Below, in pieces: positions 11,595 to 30,045 of a DNA stretch of 64,000 nt (position 1 is its first letter; each line of letters begins with the position of its first letter). The position numbers were made by a program, and so were the translations under genes. Source of the DNA: Granulicoccus phenolivorans DSM 17626 = NBRC 107789 = JCM 15570. GTDB lineage: Bacteria; Actinomycetota; Actinomycetes; Propionibacteriales; Propionibacteriaceae. Under the pieces are notes generated by a model, which was given only the letters and a program-made list of their open reading frames with translations, made no database searches and was not told the DNA's origin. The stretch lies in contig NZ_AUHH01000001.1 of the NCBI RefSeq assembly GCF_000423085.1, positions 62,001 through 126,000 on the forward strand. Reading direction: 5' to 3'.

Positions 11595-12407
11595 ATGACA
11601 CAGAGCCCCGGATCGGTCGACCCGCTGACGCTGGCGGCCGGCGCCGCGGAGGCGGTACGCCGGCGGCTGCGGATTCCGAGTGCCGAGGTGGCCCTGGTGC
11701 TGGGTTCGGGCTGGTCGGAGGCGGTCGCCGAGCTGGAGGTGATCGGGCGGGTGCCGCTGGCCGCGTTGCCGGGCTTCCACACCCCGGCGGTGGCCGGACA
11801 CGGCGGGGAATTGCTCGCGGTACGGATCACTGGCGATCGGTGTGCGCTGGTGTTCACCGGGCGGACCCATCACTACGAGGGACGCGGGGTGGCCGCGGTC
11901 GTGCACGGCGTCCGGACCGCGGCGGCCTGCGGGGTGCGCACGGTGGTGCTGACCAACGGGTCGGGGTCGCTGCGGCGCGAGTGGGGGCCGGGCACGCCGG
12001 TGCTGATCCGCGATCACATCAATCTGACCGGGGTGACGCCGCTGGTGGGGCCCCGGTTCGTCGACATGTCGGAGGCGTACGCCGGGCGGCTGCGGGACCT
12101 GGCGCGGACGGTGGATCCGTCGTTGCCGGAGGGGGTGTACGTGCAGTTCCCCGGGCCCCAGTACGAGACCCCGGCGGAGGTCCGGATGGCCGGCGTGCTC
12201 GGCGGTGACCTGGTCGGGATGTCGACGGTTCTGGAGACGATCGCGGCCCGGGAGCGCGGCCTGGAGGTGCTGGGGCTGTCGCTGGCCACCAACCTGGCTG
12301 CGGGGATCTCCCAGGCCCCGCTGGATCACCGCGAGGTAATCGCCGCCGGTCAGGCCGCCGCGCCGCGGCTGCGTAGCCTGATCACCGAACTGCTGGCGGT
12401 GCTGTGA
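11595..12407 (+). CDS. Purine-nucleoside phosphorylase, trimeric class
   Basis: The 270-residue protein phosphorolyses inosine and guanosine (and deoxy forms) to free base and (deoxy)ribose-1-phosphate. Visible motifs are the phosphate-binding VLGSGWSEA, the HYEGRG segment, GPQYETPAEVRM containing the base-binding Glu, VGMSTVLE, and SLATN with the base-contacting Asn. The usual TNAAG is TNGSGS here. The next gene, overlapping by 4 nt, is a phosphosugar mutase that can take the pentose-1-phosphate onward, as in the mycobacterial deoD-pmmB pair. Confidence 0.94.
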   Translation: MTQSPGSVDPLTLAAGAAEAVRRRLRIPSAEVALVLGSGWSEAVAELEVIGRVPLAALPGFHTPAVAGHGGELLAVRITGDRCALVFTGRTHHYEGRGVAAVVHGVRTAAACGVRTVVLTNGSGSLRREWGPGTPVLIRDHINLTGVTPLVGPRFVDMSEAYAGRLRDLARTVDPSLPEGVYVQFPGPQYETPAEVRMAGVLGGDLVGMSTVLETIAARERGLEVLGLSLATNLAAGISQAPLDHREVIAAGQAAAPRLRSLITELLAVL

Positions 12408-14011
12408 GGGACTGGGCGGCCCAAGATCCGGATCCGCGGACCCGGGCGGAGTTGACCACGTGGATCGAGCGGGCCGAGCAGGGAGATCCGGCGGCGGCAG
12501 CCGAGCTGGCCGACGCGTTCGCGGGTCGCTTGCAGTTCGGGACGGCGGGGCTGCGCGGGCGGATGGGACCGGGGCCGAACCGGATGAACCGGGTGGTGGT
12601 GTCCCAGGCCGCAGCCGGGTTGGGACGCTATCTGGCGCGAACGGGTGCGGCGGCGGGCCGGGTGCTGATCGGCTATGACGCCCGACACAATTCCGAACGG
12701 TTCGCCCGGGATTCCGCGGAGATCCTGGCCGGGGCCGGGTTCGAGGTGCTGCTGACCGCGGGGCCGGTGCCGACGCCGCTGGTGGCGTACGGGATCGGGC
12801 ACTTCGGGTGTGCCGCAGCGGTGGTGGTGACCGCCTCGCACAATCCGGCGGCCGACAACGGGTACAAGGTGTATCTGGGGGACGGCTGCCAGATCGTGCC
12901 GCCGGCCGATGCCGAGATCGCCACCGAGATCGCCGCGGTGGCGGAGGTTCCGCTGGGTGAGCTGGCCCGGTCGCCGCGCTATCGGCTGGTCGGCGCGGAG
13001 TTGGCCGAGGCGTACCTGGACCGGATCGCGACGCTGGTCGCGGCCGCGGCGCCGCGGGAGGTGCGCTGGGTGTACACGCCGCTGCACGGGGTGGGCGCGG
13101 CGACGGTCCGGCAGGCGGTGGCCCGGGCCGGGTTTCCGGCAGCGCTGGAGGTGGCGGCGCAGGCCGAGCCGGATCCGGATTTTCCGACCGTGGCGTTCCC
13201 GAATCCGGAGGAGCCCGGCGCGCTGGATCTGGCTCTCGAGCTGGCGCGGACCGAGGGGGTCGATCTGGTGATCGCGAACGATCCCGATGCGGATCGGTGT
13301 GCCGCGGCGATCGAGCAGGACGGGCAGTGGCGGATGCTGCGGGGGGATGAGCTCGGGGTGCTGCTGGGCGATCAGGCGCTGCGGCGCGGGGTGCAGGGCA
13401 CCTACGCCGCGTCGGTGGTGTCGGGGTCGCTGCTGGGCCGGTTGGCGCGGGCGGCGGGGCAGCCGTATGTGACCACGCTGACCGGGTTCAAGTGGATCGC
13501 GCGGACGCCGGGGCTGGTGTTCGGGTACGAGGAGGCGCTGGGCTACTGCACCGATCCGGCGGCGGTGCGGGACAAGGACGGGATCTCGGCCCTGATCCGG
13601 CTGCTCGCCCTGGCCGCGGAGCTCAAGGCCGAGGGCCGGACCCTGGCCGACCGACTCGCGGAGATCGAGCAGGAGCACGGGGTGTACGCCACCGACCAGT
13701 TGGCGTACCGGGTGGCGGATCTGTCGCTGATCACCGGGGCGATGGCCCGGCTGCGCGCCGATCCGCCAACGACGCTGCTCGGGGAACCGGTCCGGTTCGT
13801 CGATCTGGCGGAGGGGGGTGCGCTGCCGCCGACCGATGCGGTCCGGTTGGGGGGTGCGTCGGTGACGGTGACCGTACGCCCCTCGGGGACCGAGCCGAAG
13901 CTGAAGTGTTACTTGGAGGCACGCTCCCCCGTCGGCAGCGCGAATCCGCTGGACCGGCTCAAGGCCGAAGTTCAGGGTCTGGTGGACGGGTACCTGGACG
14001 TGGTGCGGTGA
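12404..14011 (+). CDS. Phospho-sugar mutase (phosphomannomutase/phosphoglucomutase family)
   Basis: The 535-residue protein shows the four alpha-D-phosphohexomutase signatures: FGTAGLRGRMG at the N-terminus, the phosphoserine loop TASHNPAADNGYKVY, the Mg2+ loop DPDADRC, the sugar-binding GYEEALGY and the phosphate-binding RPSGTEPKLK. Family members interconvert hexose- or pentose-1- and hexose- or pentose-6/5-phosphates. The length fits the larger PmmB/phosphopentomutase-like branch. GTG 12404 overlaps the purine phosphorylase stop, implying coupled expression and a salvage role. Confidence 0.93.
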   Translation: MRDWAAQDPDPRTRAELTTWIERAEQGDPAAAAELADAFAGRLQFGTAGLRGRMGPGPNRMNRVVVSQAAAGLGRYLARTGAAAGRVLIGYDARHNSERFARDSAEILAGAGFEVLLTAGPVPTPLVAYGIGHFGCAAAVVVTASHNPAADNGYKVYLGDGCQIVPPADAEIATEIAAVAEVPLGELARSPRYRLVGAELAEAYLDRIATLVAAAAPREVRWVYTPLHGVGAATVRQAVARAGFPAALEVAAQAEPDPDFPTVAFPNPEEPGALDLALELARTEGVDLVIANDPDADRCAAAIEQDGQWRMLRGDELGVLLGDQALRRGVQGTYAASVVSGSLLGRLARAAGQPYVTTLTGFKWIARTPGLVFGYEEALGYCTDPAAVRDKDGISALIRLLALAAELKAEGRTLADRLAEIEQEHGVYATDQLAYRVADLSLITGAMARLRADPPTTLLGEPVRFVDLAEGGALPPTDAVRLGGASVTVTVRPSGTEPKLKCYLEARSPVGSANPLDRLKAEVQGLVDGYLDVVR

Positions 14012-15834
14012 ACAACGACCGCACGGAGTTATCCAATCACGACGCCGCAGTGTTGTTTGCGCTGTGGAATCTGCGGGGCAGTCAGCTCAGCGAATCGGGC
14101 CGGACCTTCGTCCGGCTCGGCGGGCAGGTGGAGCTGGTGTTCCTGGACGACACGGTGCTGACCCGACCCGGGCAGGAGGAGCTGCCGGCCTGGTCGGTCG
14201 GTCGGCGCCTGGCCGAGGTGCTCGGCCGCGGCTACGTGATGTGGCGGGCCACGGTCAGGGCGCCGGTGCGCATCCTGCTCGGACGTGATGCCGCGGGGCA
14301 GTTCAGCTGGCAGGTCCAAGAGCTCCCGCCACTGGACGTTGCCTCCTCGGTGCAGGCTCCCCTGTTGGTCCGGGCGCCCTCGGCGGCGGGACCCAGTGCG
14401 TCCTATTCCGAGATTCCCGCGGAACCGCCCGGCCGGGCCTTCGATGACATGAACCTTCCCGAAATGGCCTTCAGCATCAGCCTCCGGGCGATCGACAACG
14501 AGCGGGCGGCCGAGGCCTTCCTGTTGTTGGCCCAACTCGGTGTGCGGGAGCCGCCCCATCAGTTCAATCGCTCCTTCTATCTCCCCACCCCGACCGGGGA
14601 CACGCAGATCGCTATTCCCGATTCCCGAGTCCTGGTCGCCCCGGATTGGCACCGCCGGGAGGAGGTCCCGGCCTGGGCGGGGAGCCGAAGCACAGCAGCG
14701 GAACTGCGGCGCACCTGGCCGCATGATTTCCATCCGCTGGTCGCAGTCATCCGGTTCGAGGATGATGGCCGGCCCGGGATCTGGTACTTCGATCGGCCGC
14801 CGTACACCTTCGCCGAGCCGATTGCGCAGCGTCCCTCCGCCGGCTGGTCGGTTCCGGTCCCGGAGGCGATCGTCGAGGATTGGCTGCCCACGCCGGAATT
14901 GAGTGACGAGGACGCCGCGGTGATCTTCGCCATGTGGACGTTGGCCCATCCGCATCTGTCGGCCGGTGGCAGGCTGTACGCCGACATCCGGGACGCTCAC
15001 ATTGAGATCAGGATTCCGGATCGTTCGGTCCTCCTGCAGCCGGACCGGGCCCATCCCGAGCAGGCGCTGTCTCCGTGGCAGGCCGGTCGGTTGGTCTCGG
15101 GGTTGATCTCCGACGCCATGGACACCTTCGTTCCGGAGAACGGCGTACAGCGAATCACTGTCGGCTACGACACCGCAGGCTTTCTCGCGCTCGCCCTCGA
15201 GAGCATCGACGAAGCCCATGAGTACCATCCGCTGGCTCCGCCGGGAACCTACCCACCACCGCCACCACCCGAATGGCAGTTCCCTGGGCTGGCGGTGGGT
15301 GATCTCACCAGGCACCGGTTGATCCCGGACCGGGTCAGCAATGAATTCGCGGGCCTGGTGTTCCTGTTGTGGCAGTTGCGGGCCGATACAACAGGGTTTC
15401 GCTACTACGTGTCGACCGGCCTGGGTCCGATCGAGATCTGCATCCCGGACTGGCGGGTCATCGTTGTCCCGGATGCCCACCTGCCGAACCAGCGGATTTC
15501 CGCTTGGGCGGGAGCCAGTGCACTGGCTCCACTGATCCGGGCCACCTGGGAGGGCCTTCCGGAGGCCGCACGGCCGGTGCGGGTCACCGTCGGCTATGAC
15601 CGGAGCGGCAAACCGGCCGCCATTATCGAAGATATGCCGATCCCGGACGGGCCCCTGCCGTCGCTGACCGACCAGGCCCCACCGTGGCCGGTCTCGACGA
15701 CTGCGCACCGGCAGATCATCAGACGATTGCGGAGCCGCCCGCGAGAGCTACTGGTCCCGCTGAGCGACCCGTTCCCCGGCACGCTGAACTGGAGTGGACA
15801 GCGCCCCGAGAGCGAAGCCGACCAGGACACCTGA
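14008..15834 (+). CDS. Unrecognised protein built of four ~140-residue internal repeats
   Basis: The 608-residue product has no motif I recognise but consists of four related units at about residues 8-145, 150-290, 297-435 and 443-570. Each unit has an opening helix (FALWNLR, FLLLAQL, FAMWTLA, FLLWQLR), a strand ending in D plus a hydrophobic run and PD or RP (FLDDTVLTRP, IPDSRVLVAPD, IPDRSVLLQPD, IPDWRVIVVPD), a pAW/SPWQAG turn, and a late VGYDxxG-like strand. No signal peptide or transmembrane segment is visible. GTG 14008 overlaps the mutase stop by 4 nt, so it belongs to the purine-salvage operon. Codon use is a little less GC-biased towards its 3' end. Confidence 0.75.
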   Translation: MNNDRTELSNHDAAVLFALWNLRGSQLSESGRTFVRLGGQVELVFLDDTVLTRPGQEELPAWSVGRRLAEVLGRGYVMWRATVRAPVRILLGRDAAGQFSWQVQELPPLDVASSVQAPLLVRAPSAAGPSASYSEIPAEPPGRAFDDMNLPEMAFSISLRAIDNERAAEAFLLLAQLGVREPPHQFNRSFYLPTPTGDTQIAIPDSRVLVAPDWHRREEVPAWAGSRSTAAELRRTWPHDFHPLVAVIRFEDDGRPGIWYFDRPPYTFAEPIAQRPSAGWSVPVPEAIVEDWLPTPELSDEDAAVIFAMWTLAHPHLSAGGRLYADIRDAHIEIRIPDRSVLLQPDRAHPEQALSPWQAGRLVSGLISDAMDTFVPENGVQRITVGYDTAGFLALALESIDEAHEYHPLAPPGTYPPPPPPEWQFPGLAVGDLTRHRLIPDRVSNEFAGLVFLLWQLRADTTGFRYYVSTGLGPIEICIPDWRVIVVPDAHLPNQRISAWAGASALAPLIRATWEGLPEAARPVRVTVGYDRSGKPAAIIEDMPIPDGPLPSLTDQAPPWPVSTTAHRQIIRRLRSRPRELLVPLSDPFPGTLNWSGQRPESEADQDT

Positions 15835-15840
15835 CCAGGG

Positions 15841-15893
15841 GTTCCTCCTCGCACCTTCCACTCATTCGCCAGCTTGCAAACCTCGGCGGATCT
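15841..15893. repeat. Left copy of an imperfect direct repeat flanking the catabolic block
   Basis: Contains the 17-mer CAAACCTCGGCGGATCT (15877-15893), found again at 24630-24646. Upstream of the 17-mer the two copies also share TTCCT-CCTC and TTCC-CTCAT-CG blocks in the same order with small gaps. The copy sits between the stop of the four-repeat gene and the IclR gene end at 15895. Confidence 0.6.
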
Positions 15894-15894
15894 C

Positions 15895-16662
15895 TCAGAT
15901 GCTCTCGTGCCCGCGATTGCGGTAGAGGGCTCTGCTCAGCCCCCGGGCAGCGACCTGCAGCGCAGGGACGAAGCGCGCCAGATCCGGAGCTCCCGCCGGG
16001 TAGAGCAGGGACAGCGCGGCGAGCGCGTTTCCTTCCAGATCCAGAACTGGGACCGCCACGGCCTCGACCGCCTCTTGATGGCTACGCGGGTCGGGTGCGA
16101 ATCTGTTCGACTGAATATCGGCCTTCTCTGCAGTCGTAGGCATCCGCCCAACGCCTCGACGTCCCCGCGATTGCTCCTGCACAGCCTCAATCACCGAGTT
16201 CGGGGAAAATGCCAACATTGCCCACCCTGCGGCCGTGGCCTGCGCCGGGAGGCGGCCTCCCGGGCGCGATGAAAGGCCCTTGATCGGATTCACGATCTCG
16301 AGGTACACCACATCGGCGCCTTCCAGGACAGCGAGGTGCATCGCACCTCCCGTGGTCGCTGCCAAATCGCTGAGGAATGGCAGCGCCGCGACCCGGAGCG
16401 GGGAGTGGAGCGGAACCAATTGACCGATCTCGAACATGCGCAAACCGATGCGCACTCCGGTGTCGGTCTTCTCCAGCATCCCGAGGCTGACCATTTCTTG
16501 CACGATGCGGTGTCCAGTGGCCTTGGACAGCCCGGCCCGACGAGCGAGTTCGCTCGATTGCACACAGGCATCACCCGGGCGGAACGCACTGAGAATCGCG
16601 AAACTGCGCTCCAGAATGCCGGACCTGCTTGTTTCGGGCTTGGCCGCCCCGTCGTCGGTCAC
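15895..16662 (-). CDS. IclR-family transcriptional regulator
   Basis: The 255-residue protein has an N-terminal winged helix (ERSFAILSAF, ELARRAGLSKATGHRIVQEM, LGMLEKTDTGVRIGLRMFEIG) and the C-terminal IclR effector domain (MHLAVLEGADVVYLEIV, AGWAMLAF, AVAVPVLDLEGNALAALSL). Such proteins bind small aromatic or carboxylic effectors and control neighbouring catabolic genes. It is the last gene of the minus-strand block, 37 nt after the ABC ATPase, so it is likely co-expressed with and controlling the operon. GTG 16662 follows AGAGGGGC. Confidence 0.93.
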   Translation of the reverse strand: MTDDGAAKPETSRSGILERSFAILSAFRPGDACVQSSELARRAGLSKATGHRIVQEMVSLGMLEKTDTGVRIGLRMFEIGQLVPLHSPLRVAALPFLSDLAATTGGAMHLAVLEGADVVYLEIVNPIKGLSSRPGGRLPAQATAAGWAMLAFSPNSVIEAVQEQSRGRRGVGRMPTTAEKADIQSNRFAPDPRSHQEAVEAVAVPVLDLEGNALAALSLLYPAGAPDLARFVPALQVAARGLSRALYRNRGHESI

Positions 16663-16699
16663 GATGCCCCTCTGTTCTCTTCCGCCTCACCACGATAGT

Positions 16700-17566
16700 T
16701 CATAGGACCCCAGCCGCGATCTGAGCGGGGACCAAGCCCCTCTTCGCGAGCTGAATTTGCTCGTGGATGTGAAGGCGCAGCTCCGCGAAGCGGGGAGTCG
16801 ATCGGGTCGCCAACTGGTTGCGTTCGTCGGGCAGGTCAATGGTGACCACCTCCTGAACGACAGTTGGGCTGGACGACAACACAAGTACCCGTTCCGCGAG
16901 ATAGACCGACTCGTCGATGTCATGGGTCACGAAGAGGACGGTGACCCCCAGGCGGTGCCAGATGTCTCGGACCAGGTCTTCCAGATCCGCTCGGGTTTGT
17001 GCGTCCACTGCGGCGAACGGCTCGTCCATCAGGAGGATGTGTGGTTTGTACGCCACAGCACGGGCGATCGCCACGCGCTGCTGCATCCCACCCGACAGTT
17101 GCCAGGGGTAGCGGGCATGGGCATGCGCCATGCCGACTGCCTCCAGCGCCTCGGTGACCCGGCGGTCCCGCTCGTCCTTCGGTACCCGGGCATTCTTCAG
17201 CGGAAGGTCCACGTTGCCCTGAACCGTGAGCCAGGGAAACAAGGATCGTCCGTACTCCTGGAACACCACCGCCATCGTTTTTGGCGGCCCGGTCACCGGC
17301 TTGCCCTCCAGCGTTACTTGGCCTGCGGTGGGTTCGAGGAGCCCCGCGATGATCTTTAGTAGGGTCGTCTTGCCAGCCCCGGAAGGCCCGACAATGCAAG
17401 CGAACTCGCCACGACGTAGGTCGAAGGTCAGGTCGCGGACCGCCTCGACCGGGCCGGATTTACTCGCGTAGATCTTTTGCACCCCATGGACCGACAGGAG
17501 TATCTCCTGGCGTTGTTCTCGGGCCGAAGCCGCGGGCCGGGACACTTCATCATTCACTGTGCTCAA
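16700..17566 (-). CDS. ABC transporter ATPase, nitrate/sulfonate/taurine type
   Basis: The 288-residue protein has Walker A GPSGAGKTTLL, signature LSGGMQQRVAIARA, Walker B ILLMDEPFAAVD and the H-loop FVTHDIDES, closest in character to SsuB/TauB ATPases. It powers the two permeases encoded upstream. A TTG at 17566 overlaps the permease stop by 17 nt; a GTG at 17557 is an alternative start. It is part of the same polycistronic unit as the permeases, amidohydrolase and binding protein. Confidence 0.93.
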   Translation of the reverse strand: MSTVNDEVSRPAASAREQRQEILLSVHGVQKIYASKSGPVEAVRDLTFDLRRGEFACIVGPSGAGKTTLLKIIAGLLEPTAGQVTLEGKPVTGPPKTMAVVFQEYGRSLFPWLTVQGNVDLPLKNARVPKDERDRRVTEALEAVGMAHAHARYPWQLSGGMQQRVAIARAVAYKPHILLMDEPFAAVDAQTRADLEDLVRDIWHRLGVTVLFVTHDIDESVYLAERVLVLSSSPTVVQEVVTIDLPDERNQLATRSTPRFAELRLHIHEQIQLAKRGLVPAQIAAGVL

Positions 17567-18323
17567 CTTCTTTCAATCCGTAGTACCAACGCAGGATTCG
17601 CTTCTCTGCCACAGCGAAGATGGCTGCCAGCAGGACACCGATCAGGCCGAGAAGGATGATGCCGCTCCACATTTCCGGAACCGCGAACGACCGCTGGAAG
17701 GCCACGATCGTGAACCCGAGACCCGATGAGGAGGCGAACATCTCCGAGATCACCATCAGGATGAGCCCGATCGACAGTGCTTGGCGGATGCCGGTCACGA
17801 AATACGGGCTGGCTGCCGGAAGAGTGAGCATGATGGTCCGCGACAGACCCTGAATGCCGTAGACACGGGCGGTGTCACCGAGCACCTCGTCCATGGACCG
17901 CACGCCTTCGATGGTGTTCAGCAGAATCGGCCAGATGCAGCCGGACACGATCACGAGGACCTTCATCGAGTCGTTGACACCCACCAACAGCATGAGGATC
18001 GGAACCAGAATCGGCGGGGGGATTGCCCGGAACAGTTCCAAGACCGGCTCAGTGAGCCGACGCAGCGTCCGACTGGAACCGATAACGAAGCCGAGGCCAA
18101 TTCCCAGAACCGTGGCGGTCGCCAGGCCCACGAGCAGCCGTAGCAGGGATGGCACGACATCGTTGGCGAATCTCGGCCCGATCCACACCTCGGTAAAGGT
18201 CGAGACCATCTGGGCGGGTCTTGGCACCCAGAAGCTGTCGCTGTTCAGGGTGAGTGCCCACCACAGGAAGACAAGTATGAGGGGTAGCGCAACGAAGTAC
18301 GCGGTTCGTTTGATCAGACTCAT
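17550..18323 (-). CDS. ABC transporter permease (SsuC-like), second
   Basis: The 257-residue integral membrane protein has about six hydrophobic segments and the binding-protein-dependent permease loop near residues 170-190 (TLPAASPYFVTGIRQALSIG). ATG 18323 overlaps the preceding permease stop as ATGA. Two permease genes in tandem suggest a heterodimeric channel. Confidence 0.9.
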   Translation of the reverse strand: MSLIKRTAYFVALPLILVFLWWALTLNSDSFWVPRPAQMVSTFTEVWIGPRFANDVVPSLLRLLVGLATATVLGIGLGFVIGSSRTLRRLTEPVLELFRAIPPPILVPILMLLVGVNDSMKVLVIVSGCIWPILLNTIEGVRSMDEVLGDTARVYGIQGLSRTIMLTLPAASPYFVTGIRQALSIGLILMVISEMFASSSGLGFTIVAFQRSFAVPEMWSGIILLGLIGVLLAAIFAVAEKRILRWYYGLKEVEHSE

Positions 18324-19180
18324 CGGTCAGCCTCCGACCGGATCGAGGAATGCCAGCTGAGCCAGCGTTTCTGAATGAATCGGAATCCGGCGTTGATCAG
18401 AACACCCAACAGGCCGGTGGTCAATACCAGTGCGTACATCCCGGAGTAGGCGCCACCGGACTGGGCCCTGGCTATCTCGTGCCCCAGGCCGGGCATTCCG
18501 ATTAGGAGTTCCGCGGTCACCGCGAGCACCAGAGCAACCGAGGCAGACAGTCTGAGTCCCGTGACCAGGTAGGGCAGTGTGGTGGGCCACACGACATGCC
18601 GAAGCCTCGCGATGTAGCTGGTGAGACCGTAGCTGCGCGCGGTGTTGGCGGCTACTGGATCGACATCCGCCACCCCGTACAGGACCTGCACGAGCACCGG
18701 CCAGAAAGAGGCGTACACAACCAGGAGAAGTTTCGATTCCAACTTGACGCCGAATACCAGGACGGCCAGCGGGATGAGGGCCACCGAAGGGATGGGGCGC
18801 AGAAATTCGATGGTCGAAGCGGTGAAGCGGCGCAGGAAACCGGAACTCCCGATCAGCATGCCCAGGATGATGGCGGCAACCGAGGCGATCGCTAGGCCGA
18901 TAGCCCAGCCCAAAAGGGTTTCCCCGATTGCCTGCCACAACGTGGCAGTGCCCAGCAGGGTGAAGAATTCTGCCAGCACCGCACTTGCCGGCGGGAGATA
19001 TCGGGCCGGGACCAGCCCGGAACGAGGGATGAGTTCCCAGATCAGTAGGAAAACCAAGGTGCCGATGGCACCCAACAGCCCGGCAGGGAGCGCCCGTAGC
19101 TTGTCCCAGAAGGAGCGGGGCCGTTGTGCCGGTCCGGCTTGTGGATGGGCGAGTGTCATGTTTGTCATCTGATGCCTCAC
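18320..19180 (-). CDS. ABC transporter permease (SsuC-like), first
   Basis: The 286-residue protein has about six transmembrane segments and the conserved permease loop VVWPTTLPYLVTGLRLSAS. It starts at GTG 19180, overlapping the amidohydrolase stop by 4 nt; an ATG 12 nt further in is an alternative. It partners the permease at 17550 and the ATPase at 16700. Confidence 0.9.
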   Translation of the reverse strand: MRHQMTNMTLAHPQAGPAQRPRSFWDKLRALPAGLLGAIGTLVFLLIWELIPRSGLVPARYLPPASAVLAEFFTLLGTATLWQAIGETLLGWAIGLAIASVAAIILGMLIGSSGFLRRFTASTIEFLRPIPSVALIPLAVLVFGVKLESKLLLVVYASFWPVLVQVLYGVADVDPVAANTARSYGLTSYIARLRHVVWPTTLPYLVTGLRLSASVALVLAVTAELLIGMPGLGHEIARAQSGGAYSGMYALVLTTGLLGVLINAGFRFIQKRWLSWHSSIRSEADR

Positions 19181-20736
19181 TGGGCGGTCTGGTGGACGAT
19201 GTCGCCCCCGATTGCTGTCGCCACAACGCGAAGGTCTGCCAGCTCACTGGCGCGGCAGGAGAGAGGGTCCCCGTTGAGGACCACCCAGTCGGCCCGGGCG
19301 CCCGGCCGAAGTACCCCTTCGGTTGCGTCGACCATGGCGACGGCGGCCGCCCCCGGCCCGTAGAGTCGCAGCGCAGCGTTTCGATCCAGCGTTTCGGCGG
19401 GATTGAGGCAGCGACCGCCATGCTGACGGGTCACCGCTTGCCAGATGCCGTGGACGGGGCTGGACGCCGTGACCGGGGAATCCGATCCCCCACCGACGGT
19501 TACCCCTGCCGACAGCCACGAGCGCAGGGGGCTGGCCAATTCAGTGGCCTCCCAGCCGAACCGATTGGCCAGGGTTTCCGCGAATCGGGCGTACATCCCC
19601 GGCTGCGCCGCAACCCGCACGCCCAGTTGTGCAGCGGTCCGCATGCTCTCCGGAGATGGCCAGAGATATGCATGGATGAGCGAGAATCCCAGATGCTGCA
19701 CCTGCGAGGCCGGCCTCAGCCTGGCAATGCTGCGAAGCGCTGAGTCAACAGCCGCATTGCCAACAGTATGTGCGCCCACAGGGAGGCCTTGACCGAAGGC
19801 GAACTCATACAGCGCATCGAGATCAGGTTGCTCGATCAGACGCTCGCCGTAGTAGTCGGGACGCCCCGGGTACGGGTCGCGCAGCCAAGCGGTTCCCAGC
19901 GAACCACCGCCGTCCAGAAACACTTTGAACCCGCCGAAGTGCAAGCGAGGGTCGTCCTTCATTTCCCGGGCGAGCGGGAGGAAGGTCTCGGCCGATTTCA
20001 CCGCGGCCGCCCCCGAGGGAACCACCCCGAGAAGGGTGGCGCGCATCCGCAGTTGCCCGGAGACATTTGCCATACGGTAAGCGTCAACCTCGGCCAATGA
20101 CAGGCCCGGCTCGACCACCCGGGTGATGCCTTGTTCCAGGCAGCGGCGCTGGCCGGCGAAAAGAGCATCTTTCCGTTCCTGGGTAGACAGCTCCGGTAGC
20201 TGGCCACGGACCAAGTCCCGAGCGTGTTCAATCAGGTGTCCGGATGCCCATTGCCCTTCCGGGCTCAGTCCGGCGCGCAGGAGCGCAGCAGAGTTGACCG
20301 CGGCTTCGTGCCCCCCTCGGGCCAGATAAACCGGCCGTTCGGGACAGATCGCGTCCAACTCGGCGCGGGTGGGATAGCGCTGCTCGATTAGATCTGCGAT
20401 CTCCCATCCCTCGGAAGAGATGATCCAATCCCCGTCCGGATGGTCACGTACCCAGCGGCGCACCATGTCGAGGAGTTCCGCGATGGACCGGGCCGGGCTG
20501 AGATCCAGGTGGACGTCAGCCATCCCGGTCCACAGCATATGGTGGTGGCAGTCGATGAAGCCTGGCAGAACGGTCTGGTCGCCGAAGTCCAACACGTCGA
20601 TGTCCCCACGGAGCGGGCTGCTGACCTCCACCGGGTCCCCCACCGCGACGATGCGTCCGTCCGCCACCACCATTGCCCGGGCCCGCGGGATTTTGGTATC
20701 CAGCGTCAGCAGATCACCCAGGATCAGGCGGGCCAT
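19177..20736 (-). CDS. Amidohydrolase family 3 (YtcJ-like) metal-dependent hydrolase
   Basis: The 519-residue protein has the amidohydrolase layout: an N-terminal beta-sandwich half (LILGDLLTLDT, VVADGRIVAVGD), the metal-binding VLPGFIDCHHHM, later His-containing VGAHTVGNAAVD, GVTVGGGSDSPV with the metal-ligand Asp, and a C-terminal GVLRPGARADWVVLNGDPL. These enzymes hydrolyse C-N (sometimes C-O) bonds of amides and cyclic compounds. Placed inside a transporter operon between the solute-binding protein and permeases, it probably acts on the imported compound. The substrate cannot be deduced from sequence. Confidence 0.88.
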   Translation of the reverse strand: MARLILGDLLTLDTKIPRARAMVVADGRIVAVGDPVEVSSPLRGDIDVLDFGDQTVLPGFIDCHHHMLWTGMADVHLDLSPARSIAELLDMVRRWVRDHPDGDWIISSEGWEIADLIEQRYPTRAELDAICPERPVYLARGGHEAAVNSAALLRAGLSPEGQWASGHLIEHARDLVRGQLPELSTQERKDALFAGQRRCLEQGITRVVEPGLSLAEVDAYRMANVSGQLRMRATLLGVVPSGAAAVKSAETFLPLAREMKDDPRLHFGGFKVFLDGGGSLGTAWLRDPYPGRPDYYGERLIEQPDLDALYEFAFGQGLPVGAHTVGNAAVDSALRSIARLRPASQVQHLGFSLIHAYLWPSPESMRTAAQLGVRVAAQPGMYARFAETLANRFGWEATELASPLRSWLSAGVTVGGGSDSPVTASSPVHGIWQAVTRQHGGRCLNPAETLDRNAALRLYGPGAAAVAMVDATEGVLRPGARADWVVLNGDPLSCRASELADLRVVATAIGGDIVHQTAQ

Positions 20737-20739
20737 GAT

Positions 20740-21720
20740 TCACTTCCCGACGAGTTGCTGCACTGTGACCGGACCACCCAGAAGTCCCTGTTCCTGGCTG
20801 TACTGAATCAGCTTGTCCAGGGAGGACTCGTTGAACGTTTCCGGGAACGCCGGAAGTCCGATTCGGGCTGCGGTGGCCGCGTCGATGGATGTGTACTGCG
20901 TGAGAACGTTGCGCACCGCATCAGGGTTCTGCGTCGCATAGACCATCGATTTGTGCATCGCTCGCTTGAAGGCTGCCAGGGTCTCCGGATTCTTCGTGGC
21001 CCACTGCTTCGAAGCGAAGTAGGAGGCCACCGACAAGTTGGGATCGGTCTTGTCATAGTTGTCCAGCACCGGCCGGGCACCCCGGTCCAGGAGTTGAGTG
21101 ACAAAGGGCTCGCAGGCCCAGGCTGCGTCGACGCGCCTTTGTTCCACTGCAGCCGGCATGTCCGGGAAGGCCAGTTCGGTGAACTTGACCGTGCTGGGAT
21201 CGATTCCTTCGCTCTGCAGGGCGGCCTTGATGGTGACGTCGCCGATGTTGTTCAGCGTGTTCACCGCAACTGTTCGCCCTTGCAGGTCGGCGGCGTTCTG
21301 AATAGCGGAGTCTGCAGTGACCACGCTGCAGTAGCCGGCGGCTGGATTGCTCGAGCGATTCTCGGGCGAGATCCCGACTCCGGGGCTCACCAGTTGCAAC
21401 GGAAGCCCCTTGGAGACTCCGATGATCAGCGAGACGTTGTTCGAGAAACCGATCTGGTAACTGTCGCTGGTAACTGCAGGCACGATCGCTGCGCCGCCGG
21501 CAGCTAGGACCGGGTCGAGTTCGATCCCTTCCTCGCGGAAGAATCCTTGCTGAATACCCACATAGACGGGAGCCACATCCACAATCGGAATGAGGCCGAT
21601 GGTCAGCTTCTTTATCCCCTTGTCGCCAGCTGAACCACCACCTCCGCACGCAGCAAGAAGCAACGACAGGGAGACCGCAATAATCAGTGGGATGATACGA
21701 GTCTTGTTTCGCATATCCAT
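20740..21720 (-). CDS. ABC transporter solute-binding lipoprotein (SsuA/NMT1-like)
   Basis: The 326-residue precursor has a lipoprotein signal (IIPLIIAVSLSLLLAAC, Cys near residue 25). The mature part looks like a periplasmic nitrate/sulfonate/thiamine-precursor-type binding protein: KKLTIGLIPIVDVAPVYVG, GFFREEGIELDPV, then AAVEQRRVDAAWACEPF. It would capture the ligand outside the membrane for the permeases at 17550 and 18320. ATG 21720 follows GAAAGGAG. Base composition here is clearly less GC-rich than in flanking core genes. Confidence 0.9.
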   Translation of the reverse strand: MDMRNKTRIIPLIIAVSLSLLLAACGGGGSAGDKGIKKLTIGLIPIVDVAPVYVGIQQGFFREEGIELDPVLAAGGAAIVPAVTSDSYQIGFSNNVSLIIGVSKGLPLQLVSPGVGISPENRSSNPAAGYCSVVTADSAIQNAADLQGRTVAVNTLNNIGDVTIKAALQSEGIDPSTVKFTELAFPDMPAAVEQRRVDAAWACEPFVTQLLDRGARPVLDNYDKTDPNLSVASYFASKQWATKNPETLAAFKRAMHKSMVYATQNPDAVRNVLTQYTSIDAATAARIGLPAFPETFNESSLDKLIQYSQEQGLLGGPVTVQQLVGK

Positions 21721-21740
21721 CTCCTTTCGAATGAATTTTT

Positions 21741-22946
21741 TCAGAGGAAACGTTCAGGCTTTCCCTCGAAGGGGATACCCACATAGAGTTCAGAAAAGGA
21801 CGCCTGCGCGCTGCGTGAAATAACGAGGTTCTGCAGGCGAGCTCGTTGCAGCCGTCGTTCGAATTCCTGACCGGGCACGTGGTGCAGCAGGGCGGTCATG
21901 TGGCGAGAGAACTCCTGGGCCCGCCAGATGCGGCGCAGGGCCGTGGTGGAGTAGTTCGCGAGGAGTTCGTCATTCCCCGTGCGGTAGTGATCCATCAGTG
22001 CCTCACTGAGCACCGAGATATCAGACGCGGCCAGATTCAGTCCCTTGGCTGCGGTCGGCGGGACGATGTGCGCCGCGTCACCGGCAAGGAACAGCCGCTT
22101 GTACTGCAGCGGTTCCACCACGAAGGACCGCATCGCAGTGACGCTCTTTTGTACGATCGGCCCTCGGTGCAAGGTCCACCCGTCCTGGGTGGCGAGTCGT
22201 CGGGTCAGTTCGTCCCAGATGAACTCATCAGGGACCGTGGCTGCGTCGCAGTCGGGTTCCACCTGGAGATAGAGCCGACTCAACGTCGGGGACCGCCTGC
22301 TGTGCATGGCGAACCCATGGTCGTGGTGGGCGTAAATGAGCTCCCGGGTGGACGGCGGAACCTCGGCGAGAATGCCCAGCCAGCCGAAGGGATAGTCGTG
22401 CTGGAACTCGGTACGCAGGGTTTGGGGCACCGCCGACCGAGAGACCCCATGAAAGCCGTCGCAGCCAGCCACATAGTCGGCGGTGATAACGTGCTCGGCT
22501 CCGTCGGCATCGCGGTACGTGACCTGCGGCCGCTCAGTATCGAGGTTATGTAGCGCCACGTCGAGAGCCTCAAAGACGATAGGTTCCCCTGAGGTGTCAC
22601 GGGCGCGAAGCAGGTCCTTGACCACCTCCTGCTGGGGATACAACACGGTCTGCTGCCCACCGGTCAACTCGGCGGTGGGAAACCAGACGCGCTCCCCCTC
22701 GAACCGCAACTCGAAACCTTCATCGAACTGCCCATCGCGACGGAGGTGGTCGTCGACGCCCGCGATGCCGAGCAGTTCGACGGTGGGGTGTTCCAGCAGG
22801 CCGGCGCGGATCCGTTCCTCGATATAGCGTCGGGTCCGCAATTCCAGCACGAGGTTGTCGATGCCGGCGAGTCCCAGCAGACGACCGAGCAGGAGGCCCG
22901 CTGGCCCTGCGCCGACAATGACGACCGAAGTCTCGATGGAAGACAT
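21741..22946 (-). CDS. pobA: 4-hydroxybenzoate 3-monooxygenase-like FAD hydroxylase (PobA family)
   Basis: The 401-residue protein has the FAD motif VVIVGAGPAGLLLG (residues 8-21), the second flavin/NADPH motif DYVAGCDGFHGVSR and GDAAHIVPPTAAKGLNLAASD. Comparing with the P. fluorescens enzyme from memory, the carboxylate-binding Ser212, Arg214 and Tyr222 equivalents are kept (HSRRSPTLSRLY), as are Tyr201 (LIYAHH) and Tyr385 (ELYVGIP). The substrate should therefore be a para-substituted benzoate. 4-Hydroxybenzoate is the default, 4-aminobenzoate an alternative suggested by its neighbours. Length and layout are normal. Confidence 0.88.
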   Translation of the reverse strand: MSSIETSVVIVGAGPAGLLLGRLLGLAGIDNLVLELRTRRYIEERIRAGLLEHPTVELLGIAGVDDHLRRDGQFDEGFELRFEGERVWFPTAELTGGQQTVLYPQQEVVKDLLRARDTSGEPIVFEALDVALHNLDTERPQVTYRDADGAEHVITADYVAGCDGFHGVSRSAVPQTLRTEFQHDYPFGWLGILAEVPPSTRELIYAHHDHGFAMHSRRSPTLSRLYLQVEPDCDAATVPDEFIWDELTRRLATQDGWTLHRGPIVQKSVTAMRSFVVEPLQYKRLFLAGDAAHIVPPTAAKGLNLAASDISVLSEALMDHYRTGNDELLANYSTTALRRIWRAQEFSRHMTALLHHVPGQEFERRLQRARLQNLVISRSAQASFSELYVGIPFEGKPERFL

Positions 22947-22958
22947 GTCGGACTCCGA

Positions 22959-23378
22959 TCAGGAAGCAACTGCGGCGATGCAGTCGATCTCGACGAGGAC
23001 ACCGTCCCGAGGGGGATCGGCGCGGACACAGGTTCGCGCGGGGAACTGCCGCGAGGTTTCGAAGAACTCACGGTAGATGGCATTGAACGTGGGGAAGTTC
23101 GTCATGTCGCGGAGGTAGACATTGCAGCGCACAATGTCATCCTTGGTGCCACCGGCGGCCTCTACCACGCGCAGCAGGTTGGCGAGCGTGGACCTGGTCT
23201 GCTCCGCGAAGTCGTCGGAGACGATGGTGTGTGTGGCGGGATCCAGGGGTCCTTGGCCGGATACGAACAGCAGGCCGTTGTGTGCGATGGCCATCGAAAT
23301 CGGGGCCTTGGTGCCGGGAGAAAATCCTGTTGTGGGGGCCTTATCGGTGCTGATCACACGTGGGCTGCTCTGGCTCAT
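22959..23378 (-). CDS. RidA-family enamine/imine deaminase
   Basis: The 139-residue protein matches the RidA/YjgF fold pattern: FVSGQGPLDPATH, LRVVEAAGGTKDDIVRCNVYLRDM, and PARTCVRADPP containing the conserved Arg, then VEIDCIA. RidA proteins hydrolyse reactive enamines or imines, and relatives such as 2-aminomuconate deaminases act in aminophenol and 3-hydroxyanthranilate ring-cleavage pathways. The ATG at 23378 is preceded by CAGGAG. It lies between the dioxygenase and PobA genes in the same direction, which suggests a pathway-specific deaminase. Confidence 0.88.
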   Translation of the reverse strand: MSQSSPRVISTDKAPTTGFSPGTKAPISMAIAHNGLLFVSGQGPLDPATHTIVSDDFAEQTRSTLANLLRVVEAAGGTKDDIVRCNVYLRDMTNFPTFNAIYREFFETSRQFPARTCVRADPPRDGVLVEIDCIAAVAS

Positions 23379-23468
23379 GGTCAATCTCCTGATCTTGGTG
23401 TGTTTTGGGTGTGCTGATCCCGCCGGTGGCGCTTGCAGCGCACCGCCGGTGCAGAGGGTGAGGGTGAG

Positions 23469-24011
23469 TCAGCCGACCTGTTGATCGGGTCGCGGCATCA
23501 CATGCCCACAGTGGGCACAGGTGCGCGCTTCGACCGAATCGAAAAAGCGCGCGTAAGCCTTGGACACCGGATCCAGGGTGTAGTCCTCGACGGTGAAGTC
23601 CTCTTGATGGAGGAACTCACCACACTCGGGGCAGTACCAGCGGAAGTGATCCACTTCTCCATCGCGGCGTCCGCGCTCCAGGATCAAGGCGAAGGCATCC
23701 GAGGGAAACCGCGGGGAGTGCTCAGTGTTTGGCGGCATCCAGTTGGTCGCACCAGCAGGGATCACCGCCACGCTCTCCTCGCCGTCCGGCGTGCGGTGAT
23801 GCAGGTGCATGGTGCCACGGATCATGTAGGTGACCTCATCGCTGGCATTCAGATGAAATTCACTGCGATAGTCACGGCCCTTGGCAACAAACGCGAGCGA
23901 GCCCGGGTATTGCCAAAGGACCTTCACCTGACGGCCGCTTTCAATCAATTGCTCGACCACCGATTCGAGATCCTCGATCGGCAGACCCGAAGGCTTGATC
24001 TCCCGCTTCAT
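23469..24011 (-). CDS. 3-hydroxyanthranilate 3,4-dioxygenase-like ring-cleavage enzyme
   Basis: The 180-residue cupin protein has His53 and Glu59 (spacing six, in FHLNASDEV) and His98 (in TEHSPRF), matching the His-Glu-His iron triad of 3-hydroxyanthranilate dioxygenase. It also has the C-terminal structural iron site made of Cys127-Cys130 (YCPEC) and Cys165-Cys168 (CAHC), and the family segment LILERGRRDGEVDHFRWYC. These enzymes open ortho-aminophenol-type rings with O2. ATG 24011 follows GAAGGGG and gives the usual family length. It is the first gene of the operon. The substrate may be 3-hydroxyanthranilate or a related amino-hydroxybenzoate. Confidence 0.85.
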   Translation of the reverse strand: MKREIKPSGLPIEDLESVVEQLIESGRQVKVLWQYPGSLAFVAKGRDYRSEFHLNASDEVTYMIRGTMHLHHRTPDGEESVAVIPAGATNWMPPNTEHSPRFPSDAFALILERGRRDGEVDHFRWYCPECGEFLHQEDFTVEDYTLDPVSKAYARFFDSVEARTCAHCGHVMPRPDQQVG

Positions 24012-24177
24012 TCGATGCCCCTTCACCCGAAAGTATCTGCTTCCCGGAACATCAACGGTCACGGAATCGCATGTCGGCGAACCTCGAATGAGGATTAACG
24101 GAAAGCTCGTTCTTCCGATTCCTCAGAGGTTCCTTGTGGCAACTATTCAATCTTTGGGTCAAACCTCCGACAACCAG

Positions 24178-24198
24178 AGGTCTCACTCAATGAGACCT
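24178..24198. promoter_or_regulatory. 8-bp inverted repeat upstream of the catabolic operon (candidate operator)
   Basis: AGGTCTCA-CTCAA-TGAGACCT is a perfect 8-bp inverted repeat about 170 bp upstream of the first operon gene (ATG 24011), in the 283-bp gap before the phasin-like gene. IclR regulators bind palindromes of this general kind, but the link is inferred. Confidence 0.35.
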
Positions 24199-24240
24199 AG
24201 AGATGGGGAGCGACACCGGCGGGTCCCTGCGAGGGCACAA

Positions 24241-24278
24241 GCCTGCAACTCCGGGCTCACCGACTCGGAGTTGCAGGC
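24241..24278 (-). terminator. Terminator-like hairpin downstream of the phasin-like gene
   Basis: GCCTGCAACTCCG (24241-24253) and CGGAGTTGCAGGC (24266-24278) form a perfect 13-bp stem with a 12-nt loop, 17 nt after the stop of the phasin-like gene. There is no strong T-run. Confidence 0.65.
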
Positions 24279-24294
24279 TCAGCGGAACCTAGGC

Positions 24295-24600
24295 CTACTT
24301 ACGCAGCCGACGAGCGTTCGAACGCGTCTTGGTCCCGTACGGAGCCAGCGCCGCGTTCATGATCGCCAGCGGGGTCGCCCCCTTGGCGGCGGCCACCGAG
24401 GCCTTCTCGGTCGCCTTGGCCATGGCGGTCACCTTCTCCAGCACCATGCCGGTTGCTTCCGGCTGGGTCATGGTCCCGGTTGCCATCTGCGTGGTACGGC
24501 GCCAGATGACCTCGTTGGCCGACATCAGCATCTGCGAGTAGGCCATCGCGTACTCGCCCCAGGCCTGCATCGCCTTCATGCCCTGATCCCAAAACAGCAT
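24295..24600 (-). CDS. Small helical protein, phasin-like
   Basis: This 101-residue protein is almost entirely helical and Ala/Met-rich (QAWGEYAMAYSQMLMSANEVIW, MATGTMTQPEATGMVLEKV, KATEKASVAAAKGATPLAIMNAALAP) and ends in a basic tail (TRSNARRLRK). This resembles phasins, which coat polyhydroxyalkanoate granules, but no diagnostic motif is present and other granule- or envelope-associated helical proteins are possible. ATG 24600 has GAGGTAGGAA directly upstream. A TAAGAT hexamer at 24645-24650 on the minus strand could be the -10. The gene lies inside the direct repeats. Confidence 0.5.
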   Translation of the reverse strand: MLFWDQGMKAMQAWGEYAMAYSQMLMSANEVIWRRTTQMATGTMTQPEATGMVLEKVTAMAKATEKASVAAAKGATPLAIMNAALAPYGTKTRSNARRLRK

Positions 24601-24646
24601 TTCCTACCTCTTCCCCTCATCCGGTGATTCAAACCTCGGCGGATCT
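24599..24646. repeat. Right copy of the imperfect direct repeat flanking the catabolic block
   Basis: Contains CAAACCTCGGCGGATCT at 24630-24646, identical to 15877-15893, plus matching TTCCT-CCTC and TTCC-CTCAT-CG blocks. In this copy the sequence is the 5' leader and ribosome binding site of the phasin-like gene. Confidence 0.6.
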
Positions 24647-24770
24647 TAGTCCGCGATTACCCGCGCAACCATGTCAGCGCTCGCCATCAAATGACCTGCC
24701 AGCAGGGCTACGGGCGCAGCCTTCGGGCCCCGCAGACCGGTGATCGGCGGGGTTGGTGGGGCGCGGCCAC

Positions 24771-26117: not shown

Positions 26118-26154
26118 GTTTCAATCCTGGCAGCCCCCACTGACAAAAAATGCA

Positions 26155-26970
26155 TCACCCCGGCCAGGACTCCACCCCGCACTGCCCGATCCGGTTGTCA
26201 CCGGCCGCAAGGACCACCCCGTCGGCCCGCAGCCCGAGTGTGTGCCCGGCCCCCGCAGCGACCTCGACGACCTCTCGCCACGCTGCCACCTCACACTGCC
26301 CGTACGCATTGTCCCCGGCGGCCAGCACCCGGCCGTCCGAAGTGACGGCAACCACGTGCCGGCTCCCCGCGGCCACCGCCACCACACCCCGCCAGCCGGA
26401 GACGTCGCCGACCACCACCCCGGCGACCACCACGTGCCCGTCCCCGGTCACCCCGAATGTGCTCAGGTATCCGGCCGCAACGGCCCGCACCCCGCGCCAG
26501 GCGGCGACATTGCACTGCCCGCGCCGATTGTTGCCCACCGCGACGACCGTGCCATCGGCGCGCAGTCCCACCGAGTGCCAGTCCCCGGCACTGAGGGCGA
26601 TGATCTCCCGCCAGGTCTCCACCGCGCAGGCGCCTTCGCTGCGCCGCCCGGCTGCCACGACCCGCCCATCCGCGCGGCGGCCGAGCGTACGCCGCCAGCC
26701 CGCGGCAACCGCCACCACCTCCGACCAGGCAGCGACCTCGCACTGGCCGTCCCCGTTCCAGCCGACCGCGACCACCGACCCGTCCCGGCACAATCCCACG
26801 GTGTGCGAGCGGCCGGTATTCGGCGCCTCGTGCACGTTCCCGGCCGCGACCGCGACCACATTCCGCCACGACGCCACCCGGCATTCCGGGGCCCGGGGAC
26901 CACCGGCGGCGACCACCGACCCGTCCGGGCGTACCCCGACCGAATGCCGCCGGCCGGCCGCGATCCGCAC
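26155..26970 (-). CDS. RCC1-repeat beta-propeller protein
   Basis: The 271-residue protein consists of repeated RCC1-type units of about 35-40 residues. Each has a pattern like HSVGLRADGTVVAVGNN followed by RGQCNVAAW and xxVRAVAAG; about six are visible. RCC1 propellers in bacteria are mostly uncharacterised scaffolds. There is no signal peptide, so a cytoplasmic place is likely. The GTG start is 2 nt after the stop of the glutamine amidotransferase, indicating one operon running from metG. Confidence 0.85.
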   Translation of the reverse strand: MRIAAGRRHSVGVRPDGSVVAAGGPRAPECRVASWRNVVAVAAGNVHEAPNTGRSHTVGLCRDGSVVAVGWNGDGQCEVAAWSEVVAVAAGWRRTLGRRADGRVVAAGRRSEGACAVETWREIIALSAGDWHSVGLRADGTVVAVGNNRRGQCNVAAWRGVRAVAAGYLSTFGVTGDGHVVVAGVVVGDVSGWRGVVAVAAGSRHVVAVTSDGRVLAAGDNAYGQCEVAAWREVVEVAAGAGHTLGLRADGVVLAAGDNRIGQCGVESWPG

Positions 26971-26972
26971 GC

Positions 26973-27656: not shown

Positions 27657-27665
27657 GAATCCCCC

Positions 27666-28100: not shown

Positions 28101-28111
28101 GGATCGGTTCC

Positions 28112-29899
28112 TTACTTGGCGATGGGGGCCCACGCGGGCCCGGTCTGGCCGAGGCTGTCATCCAGCTTCGGGAACAACGGGGTGGGCTTGGCCAGCGGGG
28201 TGCCGGGCACGATCGGCCGGTGCGCCCAGGTGGCCTGTTCGGCGGCGTAATCGCCGGTCAGCACCGGATAGTCGGAGTTGCCCTCCTCGCTGACGGTCCG
28301 GATCTCGGGCTGTTGTGCCCAGACCCCGGAGCCACCGAGGGATTCGAAGACCTTCTGCGAGGCGTGCGGCAGGAACGGGGTCATCATCGTGTTGATGTCG
28401 GTGACCGCCTGGAGCACGGTGTGCAGGATGGTGTCCCGGCGTACCGGATCCTCCTTGAGCTTCCACGGCTCGGTCTCCGACAGGTAGCGGTTGGTCAGCC
28501 CGGCCAGCCGCATCACCTCGGTGATCGAGTTCTTGAACCGGTTCTTGCCCAGCAGGTCCCCGACGGTCCCGAAGCCGCCCTGGATCGCCGACAGCAGTTC
28601 CCGGTCGGCCGGGAGCAGATCGCCCGCGGTCGGGATCGCGCCGACATTCTTGTGCGCCATCGAGATGGACCGGCTGACCAGGTTGCCCCACTCGTTGGCG
28701 AGTTCGGTGTTGTTGCGCCGGACGAACTCGTCCCAGGTGAAGTCGGAGTCGGAGTTCTCCGGGCCGGCGACGGCGATGTAGTAGCGCAGCGCGTCCGGCC
28801 CGAACTCCTTGAGGAAGTCGGTCACGTAGATCACGGTCTTGCGAGAGGTCGAGAACTTCGAGCCCGACATGGTCAGGTATTCGCTGGAGACCAACTCGGT
28901 CGGCAGGTTCAACGTCCCGAACCGGCCGGGCGTACCCCCCTTGGCGCCCCGCCCGGACTCCCCGAGCAGCATCGACGGCCAGATCACCGAGTGGAAGACG
29001 ATGTTGTCCTTGCCCATGAAGTAGTAGGACTTCGCCTCCGGGTCGTTCCACCACTTCTTCCACGCGTTCGGGTCGCCGGAGCGGTACGCCCACTCGATCG
29101 AGGCGGACAGGTAGCCGATCACGGCGTCGAACCAGACGTAGATCCGCTTCATCGGCTGATCCCGCCAGCCGTCCAGCGGAATCGGGATGCCCCAGTCCAG
29201 GTCCCGGGTGATCGCCCGCGGATGCAGGTCCTTCAGCAGATTCTGGGAGAATTTGAGTACGTTCGGACGCCAGTCGGTCCGGGTGTCGAGCCAGCGGCCG
29301 ACCTCGTCGGCCAGCGCCGGCAGGTCCAGGTAGAAGTGTTCGGTCTCCACGAACTTGGGGGTCTCCCCGTTGATCCGCGACCGCGGATTCTTCAACTCGA
29401 TCGGGTCGAGCTGGTTGCCGCAGTTGTCGCACTGGTCGCCGCGGGCGCCGTCGTACCCACAGATCGGACAGGTGCCCTCGATGTAACGGTCGGGCAGGGT
29501 GCGCCCGGTGCTCGGGCTGACCGCGCCCATGCCCTTCTTGGCGACCACGTAGCCGTTGTTGTAGAGCGCGGTGAACATGTCCTGGGTGACCCGCTCATGG
29601 TTCTTCGTCGTGGTGCGGGTGAACAGGTCATAGCTGAGCCCGAGCCCGTGCAGGTCCTCCACGATGACCCGGTTGTACTTGTTCGCGAGTTCCTTCGCGG
29701 TGAGCCCCTCCTGCTCGGCCTGCACCTGGATCGGGGTGCCGAACTCGTCGGTGCCGGAGACCATCAGCACCTCGTTGCCGCTCATCCGCATGTACCGCGA
29801 GAAGACATCGGAGGGGACCCCGAATCCGGAGACGTGTCCGATGTGGCGGGGGCCGTTGGCGTACGGCCAGGCGACGGCGGTCAACACGCGTGAACTCAT
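28112..29899 (-). CDS. metG: Methionine--tRNA ligase
   Basis: The 595-residue class-I synthetase has the HIGH motif within [20 protein letters not shown], a zinc knuckle [18 protein letters not shown], and the KMSKS equivalent KFSTSRK. The anticodon-binding helical domain ends the protein, with no C-terminal tRNA-binding domain. It charges initiator and elongator tRNA-Met. ATG 29899 is favoured over GTG 29908 because TAGGGT lies exactly 7 nt upstream (29907-29912, leaderless). It heads an operon with the thioesterase, amidotransferase and RCC1 genes. Confidence 0.96.
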
Positions 29900-30045
29900 G
29901 GACGCCACCCTAATGCGTGGGACCGATCCCCTCGGTCCGCGCTCAACCGCGAGGCCTCGGCGGGGCGACCAGTTGTACGCGGGAGGTGACCTGCAGTTTG
30001 GTCAGCAGGGAACTGTTCCCGGGAAGCCAGGGGGTTGTCCCGGGT

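Follow-up and report, generated by a model that had tools for sequence, protein, structure and literature searches.

A four-unit orphan protein at the end of a purine-salvage operon in Granulicoccus phenolivorans and its tentative likeness to chaperone-type domains

In a 64,000-nucleotide stretch of the Granulicoccus phenolivorans DSM 17626 genome (contig NZ_AUHH01000001.1, positions 62,001 to 126,000; hereafter the window), we studied an open reading frame (ORF) at 14008..15834 (+) whose translation gives a protein of 608 aa from a GTG start. The gene, referred to here as the orphan, is present in a single copy in its own genome. It is preceded by a purine-nucleoside phosphorylase (PNP) gene at 11595..12407 (+; TIGR01698 above cut-off) and by a gene of the phosphoglucomutase/phosphomannomutase family at 12404..14011 (+; PF02878, PF02879, PF02880 and PF00408), so that the order is PNP, mutase, orphan. 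The GTG start at 14008-14010 and the mutase stop TGA at 14009-14011 share the four nucleotides GTGA (14008..14011, +). Both the coordinates of the ORF and the 4-nt overlap had been given in an earlier note, made from the letters of this DNA, and both are exact in the sequence. That note also described the orphan as fused into a purine-salvage operon. Here the position stands, with PNP and the mutase lying upstream, and the fusion does not: the orphan is a separate gene that abuts the operon. The overlap suggests that the orphan is probably translated in step with the operon end, and its partners may provide only an expression context. The first of the repeated units described below starts only a few residues past the GTG, in keeping with that start.

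The orphan was missed by a crude gene caller run on the host genome. The likely reason is that its longest frame, which begins at 13492, overlaps the mutase gene too far. We therefore scored the six frames separately, with codon statistics trained on 243 sampled host genes. The plus-strand frame of the orphan scored best, at 0.138 log-odds per codon, and continues for 1824 nt without an internal stop; the scores of the other five ranged from -0.108 to -0.923. An antisense frame of 559 aa lies under it (14029-15708, -), where all minus-strand frames scored at or below zero. Among the 243 host genes, the codon score of the orphan falls at the 2.5th percentile and its GC content at third codon positions (GC3, 0.81 compared with a host mean of 0.90) at the 3.7th percentile; the gene is therefore somewhat foreign in style. 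The low codon score would suit a non-functional frame, arisen by chance or in decay, as would the lack of detected relatives and the absence from the caller's list. We consider this explanation hardly credible, given the frame score, the uninterrupted length, a confident structural model of one unit and four homologous units that show conservation by codon position.

The protein carries a net charge of about -22 and has no strongly hydrophobic segment (best 19-residue hydrophobicity mean 1.0). It contains one Lys and one Cys in its 608 residues. We dropped the near absence of lysine as a distinguishing feature, as at most one Lys was also found in 15 of 189 called host ORFs of at least 300 aa; the figure was 2 of 62 for those of at least 500 aa. 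These counts come from crude gene calling and include membrane proteins.

The main feature of the orphan is its construction from four related units, delimited in one alignment (A1): unit 1 at residues 5-110 (14020..14337), unit 2 at 159-268 (14482..14811), unit 3 at 294-404 (14887..15219) and unit 4 at 435-548 (15310..15651), all on the plus strand. When each unit was compared with the profile of the other three, hhalign returned probabilities of 97.3%, 95.9%, 98.5% and 99.2%, respectively, with E from 5e-9 to 1e-19. Local alignment of unit pairs gave scores that none of 1000 shuffles reached in five of the six pairs, while the score of the weakest pair, units 2 and 3, was reached in 8 of 1000. 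The homology of the four units, as proposed in the earlier note, is therefore beyond chance. The unit length of about 140 residues that it gave holds for a unit plus its linker (start spacings of 154, 135 and 141), and the homologous core is about 110. Of the motifs it listed, the VGYDxxG strand occurs in units 3 and 4 only, with LGRDAAG in unit 1 and RFEDDG in unit 2, and the second PD is missing from unit 1.

Seven columns are invariant across the units: A14, F18, D47, V50, P54, W66 and G100 in unit 4 numbering. Among them, functional side chains amount to one Asp and one Trp, and no His, Cys, Glu, Lys or Ser is invariant. Codon identity between units was 0.43 at position 1, 0.49 at position 2, the highest value, and 0.41 at position 3, the lowest; 300 trials of random pairing never exceeded 0.34, 0.31 and 0.40, respectively. 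The codon was shared in 82 of 168 identical residues. Judged from these alignments, the pattern is one of protein-level conservation, as selection would give. Identity between units is only about 30%, which makes the domain either old or fast-evolving, yet no second such gene was found in the genomes searched.

The units are beads on a string, joined by Pro-rich stretches on the plus strand: linker 1-2 (14338..14481) has 48 aa with 7 Pro, linker 2-3 (14812..14886) has 25 aa with 4 Pro, and linker 3-4 (15220..15309) has 30 aa with 10 Pro. The linkers are mutually dissimilar, the score of the best pair being reached by 86 of 1000 shuffles. We also considered duplication of a two-unit block and set the idea aside: the linkers are unlike, and the unit scores are indecisive (93 for units 1 and 3 and 108 for units 2 and 4, but 113 for units 3 and 4).

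The domain is named by no family library searched here. Pfam gave no match up to E 1 for the whole protein and none up to E 10 for the four units and their consensus. NCBIfam was equally silent, up to E 1 for the whole protein and up to E 10 for the consensus, as was PADLOC up to E 10 for either, and the one PHROGs match had an E of 0.022 over 30 residues. The description of the protein as belonging to an unknown family thus holds in these libraries. As HMMER filters drop most matches above about E 0.1, remote kinship with known families may nevertheless exist. The comparison with immunity and antitoxin families that the earlier note had in view found no support in the Pfam and PADLOC scans, nor did the candidate families EspG, SseB, SUKH and Imm1 in the Pfam scans. 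The YbjN family (PF10722) and the three TY-Chap families gave no Pfam match to the units up to E 10; of these, the TY-Chap families alone were also compared profile to profile (see below). Sequence searches of solved structures had a best E of 0.047 with the A1 profile, a partial match to Mce3R, and of 1.3 with the whole protein. In phage sequences, tblastn with the orphan returned no match up to E 1. In plasmids it returned a DotI/IcmL/TraM-family gene (29% identity, E 0.03, 26% of the query), which we took as chance.

Searches of other genomes, in family, order, class and phylum samples that overlap, gave a similar picture. The whole protein had no match in the 146 other genomes of the family. 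A profile built from the four units matched in 4 of 292 other genomes of the order up to E 0.01, in none of 393 of the class up to E 0.001 and in 1 of 395 of the phylum, the last a partial match of 16.9 bits (E 0.009) that fell to 14.0 bits when rescored. All these searches, the one with the whole protein included, were limited to scoring 8-15 candidates per genome at most and may therefore have overlooked a very remote relative. We judged all five matches to be chance hits; the profile search thus placed the units in no family and gave no convincing relative.

The strongest match, L003, reached 18.1 bits (E 7e-4 among 5828 fragments) over profile positions 12-103. The protein in which it lies (251 aa) has a PF01903 CbiX match (E 4e-6) that overlaps the stretch in part. 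Because of that match, and because a per-genome E as low as its 0.0016 should turn up in about every second search of 293 genomes, we took L003 as chance. This CbiX-family protein (L003:1285-2040, -) comes from another genome of the host's family and is the match most worth a second inspection. L004 and L006 represent one partial match that recurs in two genomes of a single genus; the frame of L006 matches PF17764 PriA_3primeBD, and for L004 the stretch given matched nothing in Pfam. L005 matches over 34 columns and runs across a stop codon. Peptide-pattern scans, which need near-exact peptides and therefore detect close relatives only, gave 23 and 81 pattern matches in the species-genome collection and 2, 96 and 155 in viral contigs, none of them a relative.

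We then turned to the structure of a unit. AlphaFold2, run on unit 4 with the other three units as its alignment (four rows, one protein), gave a confident fold with pLDDT 87.9 and pTM 0.79. The same program on the whole chain as a single sequence gave no confident fold (pLDDT 34), and that model was not used for fold claims. In the unit 4 model, DSSP assigned H11-23, E25-28, E31-36, E39-44, H48-51, H65-80, E90-96 and E102-108, that is, a helix, three strands, a short helix, a helix and two strands, with the model ending 6 residues past the last strand. Foldseek found nothing below E 0.20 for it in BFVD, and the search of the PDB was likewise without a significant match. A confident model with neither a fold match nor a family match might point to a new fold with an unrecognised activity, enzymatic or ligand-binding. 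We regard this as quite improbable, since the order of the elements is shared with a known fold class and the invariant functional side chains are limited to the single Asp and Trp.

The surroundings of the orphan bear on two further explanations. We examined 20 relatives, picked from the best mutase matches; in all of them the gene immediately upstream of the mutase is PNP, and a mutase so placed may handle pentose phosphate. The genes that follow the mutase vary, and some of them look, by eye, uridine-kinase-like, deoC-like and permease-like. Among the ORFs of at least 70 aa in the next 4.5-5.5 kb, none in the 20 relatives resembled the orphan, the best scores being E 0.15 (phmmer) and 0.37 (profile). 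The orphan could be an accessory of nucleoside salvage, with PNP, the mutase or a sugar phosphate as its binding target and the tuning or scaffolding of the pathway as its task. Its 4-nt overlap at the end of a conserved gene pair would fit such a role, as would the adenosine deaminase gene nearby. However, since no relative of the orphan was detected past the mutase in any of the 20, the pathway appears to do without it there. The gene is not fused either, and we consider this role, and with it a functional tie to purine salvage, unlikely.

On the other side, the interval that holds the orphan is bounded by metG, the methionyl-tRNA synthetase gene (28112..29908, -; PF09334 and synteny). The interval from mutase to metG (14011-28112) measures 14.1 kb here, compared with a near end of metG about 0.65-5.2 kb downstream of the mutase in 7 of the 20 relatives; two of these seven sightings are partial, one of only 64 residues, and in the remaining 13 metG was not seen in the stretch taken. 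The orphan, a repeat-bounded block and a few further genes occupy the space that is shorter in those seven relatives, and the interval, judged from this gene order, is likely an insertion hot spot. Adjoining metG is the adenosine deaminase gene (30046-31380, -), so purine-salvage genes stand on both sides of the insertion zone.

The block spans 15877-24646 and is framed by an exact 17-bp direct repeat, with its left copy at 15877..15893 (+) and the other at 24630-24646. At up to 2 mismatches, the host genome has only these two copies of the repeat. Its length exceeds what 500 Markov controls for the two flanks yielded (15 bp at most), which supports the idea of an acquired block, although 15 different 17-mers recur somewhere in the window. 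The left copy begins 42 nt past the orphan stop, in agreement with the earlier claim that the orphan adjoins the left repeat of an acquired block. The orphan itself lies just outside. The block carries an IclR regulator, an ABC transporter, an amidohydrolase and FAD-binding monooxygenase-like, RidA-like and 3-HAO-like genes; the genes scanned included no recognisable recombinase. Low GC3 (0.73-0.78) was found in the seven block genes tested, which leaves the orphan intermediate between block and host. Beyond the block, the interval also contains a DUF222 gene (24771-26117, -) beside a gene for an RCC1-repeat protein (26155-26970, -; PF13540, E 1.2e-46).

Such a neighbourhood invites the idea that the orphan is cargo of a mobile element, or an immunity- or defence-type protein of linked immunity-like domains, at an insertion hot spot. 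The enlarged interval, the nearby repeat and the atypical codons would all agree with this. Against it, the orphan is outside the block, whose origin it need not share, and its GC3 is intermediate; it has no PADLOC or Pfam match, and its direct neighbours, the mutase and the IclR-type regulator, include no recognisable toxin. We thus find an origin as cargo or immunity protein improbable.

The reading that we favour, with a probability of roughly one in three, is that the orphan is a cytoplasmic, non-enzymatic protein with four sites for binding proteins or peptides, similar to a chaperone or an adaptor. On this reading, the gene would have entered the lineage between the mutase and metG, and its translation would be coupled to that of the last gene of the PNP-mutase operon. 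The protein would consist of one small domain in four divergent copies, with Pro-rich linkers between them. Each copy would most likely present its sheet, together with the conserved IPDxxVxxPD...W face, to a partner that is a protein or a peptide. The chain could then act as a multivalent chaperone or adaptor with four sites, comparable to YbjN/TY-Chap-type chaperone domains in tandem. We infer the binding role and face, the place in the cell, the lack of catalysis and the coupling. Catalysis is probably absent, as no His, Cys, Glu, Lys or Ser is invariant and no shared catalytic set is evident, and the cytoplasm is the probable place because a strongly hydrophobic segment is missing.

If the chaperone-like reading is wrong, the units may be a new domain family. 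We think it doubtful that they stand apart from the chaperone superfamily and form a dedicated multivalent scaffold linking nucleoside salvage, in this one lineage, with a partner specific to it. Orphan genes that contain internal repeats have precedents, and at present this is one such gene, a modest curiosity rather than a breakthrough.

Several results speak against the four-site binding protein. Foldseek of the unit 4 model against the PDB gave nothing below E 0.51, and the model depends on four rows of one protein. A structural second look was topped by segments of the ATPases ClpA, ClpB and ClpC (the C-terminal part of the D2 module), with Z 5.7 and an rmsd of 4.1 over 88 aligned residues. 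This second look re-aligns Foldseek's own candidates only, and a Z under 8 may reflect a common arrangement and nothing else; the orphan, for its part, has no ATPase family match in Pfam. The likeness to chaperones is read from element ranges, in which the strand order of the sheet is not visible, and the binding face is guessed from the conserved positions. The last helix of AmyR/YbjN is not seen in the modelled unit, which ends 6 residues past its last strand; TY-Chap2, for its part, is described with two helices only (PMC9503650). Finally, hhalign of the units against TY-Chap1, TY-Chap2 and TY-Chap3 gave 0.1-0.7%, a null that carries little weight because the TY-Chap families compared with one another also gave 0.0-0.8% (profiles from 29 of 30 loci for TY-Chap1, a locus with a stop being left out, from all 30 for TY-Chap3 and from all 4 for TY-Chap2).

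TY-Chap1 and TY-Chap3 are common in the order of the host (90 and 94 of 196 genomes). The host itself has TY-Chap3 and TY-Chap1 in one 380-residue open frame (L069/L103, G000:C14:32853-33719), and no TY-Chap2 match was found in its genome up to E 0.001.

The domains of the YbjN family (AmyR, DR1245) and of class I type III secretion chaperones are similar in size to the unit. They have no sequence match to it and are not among the fold-search rows shown, which excludes nothing. In the portion of the AmyR report available, the crystal structure of AmyR (YbjN) has three helices and five strands, and its first seven elements follow the order of unit 4, apart from the short H48-51 of the latter (PMC5398634). 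TY-Chap1, TY-Chap2 and TY-Chap3 (PF22551, PF22553 and PF22552) have a predicted chaperone fold, and in TY-Chap2 the domain, a meander of five strands with two flanking helices, is present twice according to the part of its source consulted (PMC9503650). According to the same portions, this fold class serves the binding of peptides and proteins (PMC5398634, PMC9503650). The likeness of the unit model to the YbjN/TY-Chap class is thus one of element order only, and neither the fold searches nor the profiles establish kinship. As far as those portions go, AmyR is a single-domain homodimer, in contrast to the four units in one chain of the orphan (PMC5398634), and the two-copy build of TY-Chap2 offers a precedent for copies in tandem (PMC9503650). 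Should the chaperone-like reading be right, the orphan would add a four-copy architecture to a superfamily that these sources, in the parts available, describe with one or two copies. The variant seen here is the four-copy form of this element order.

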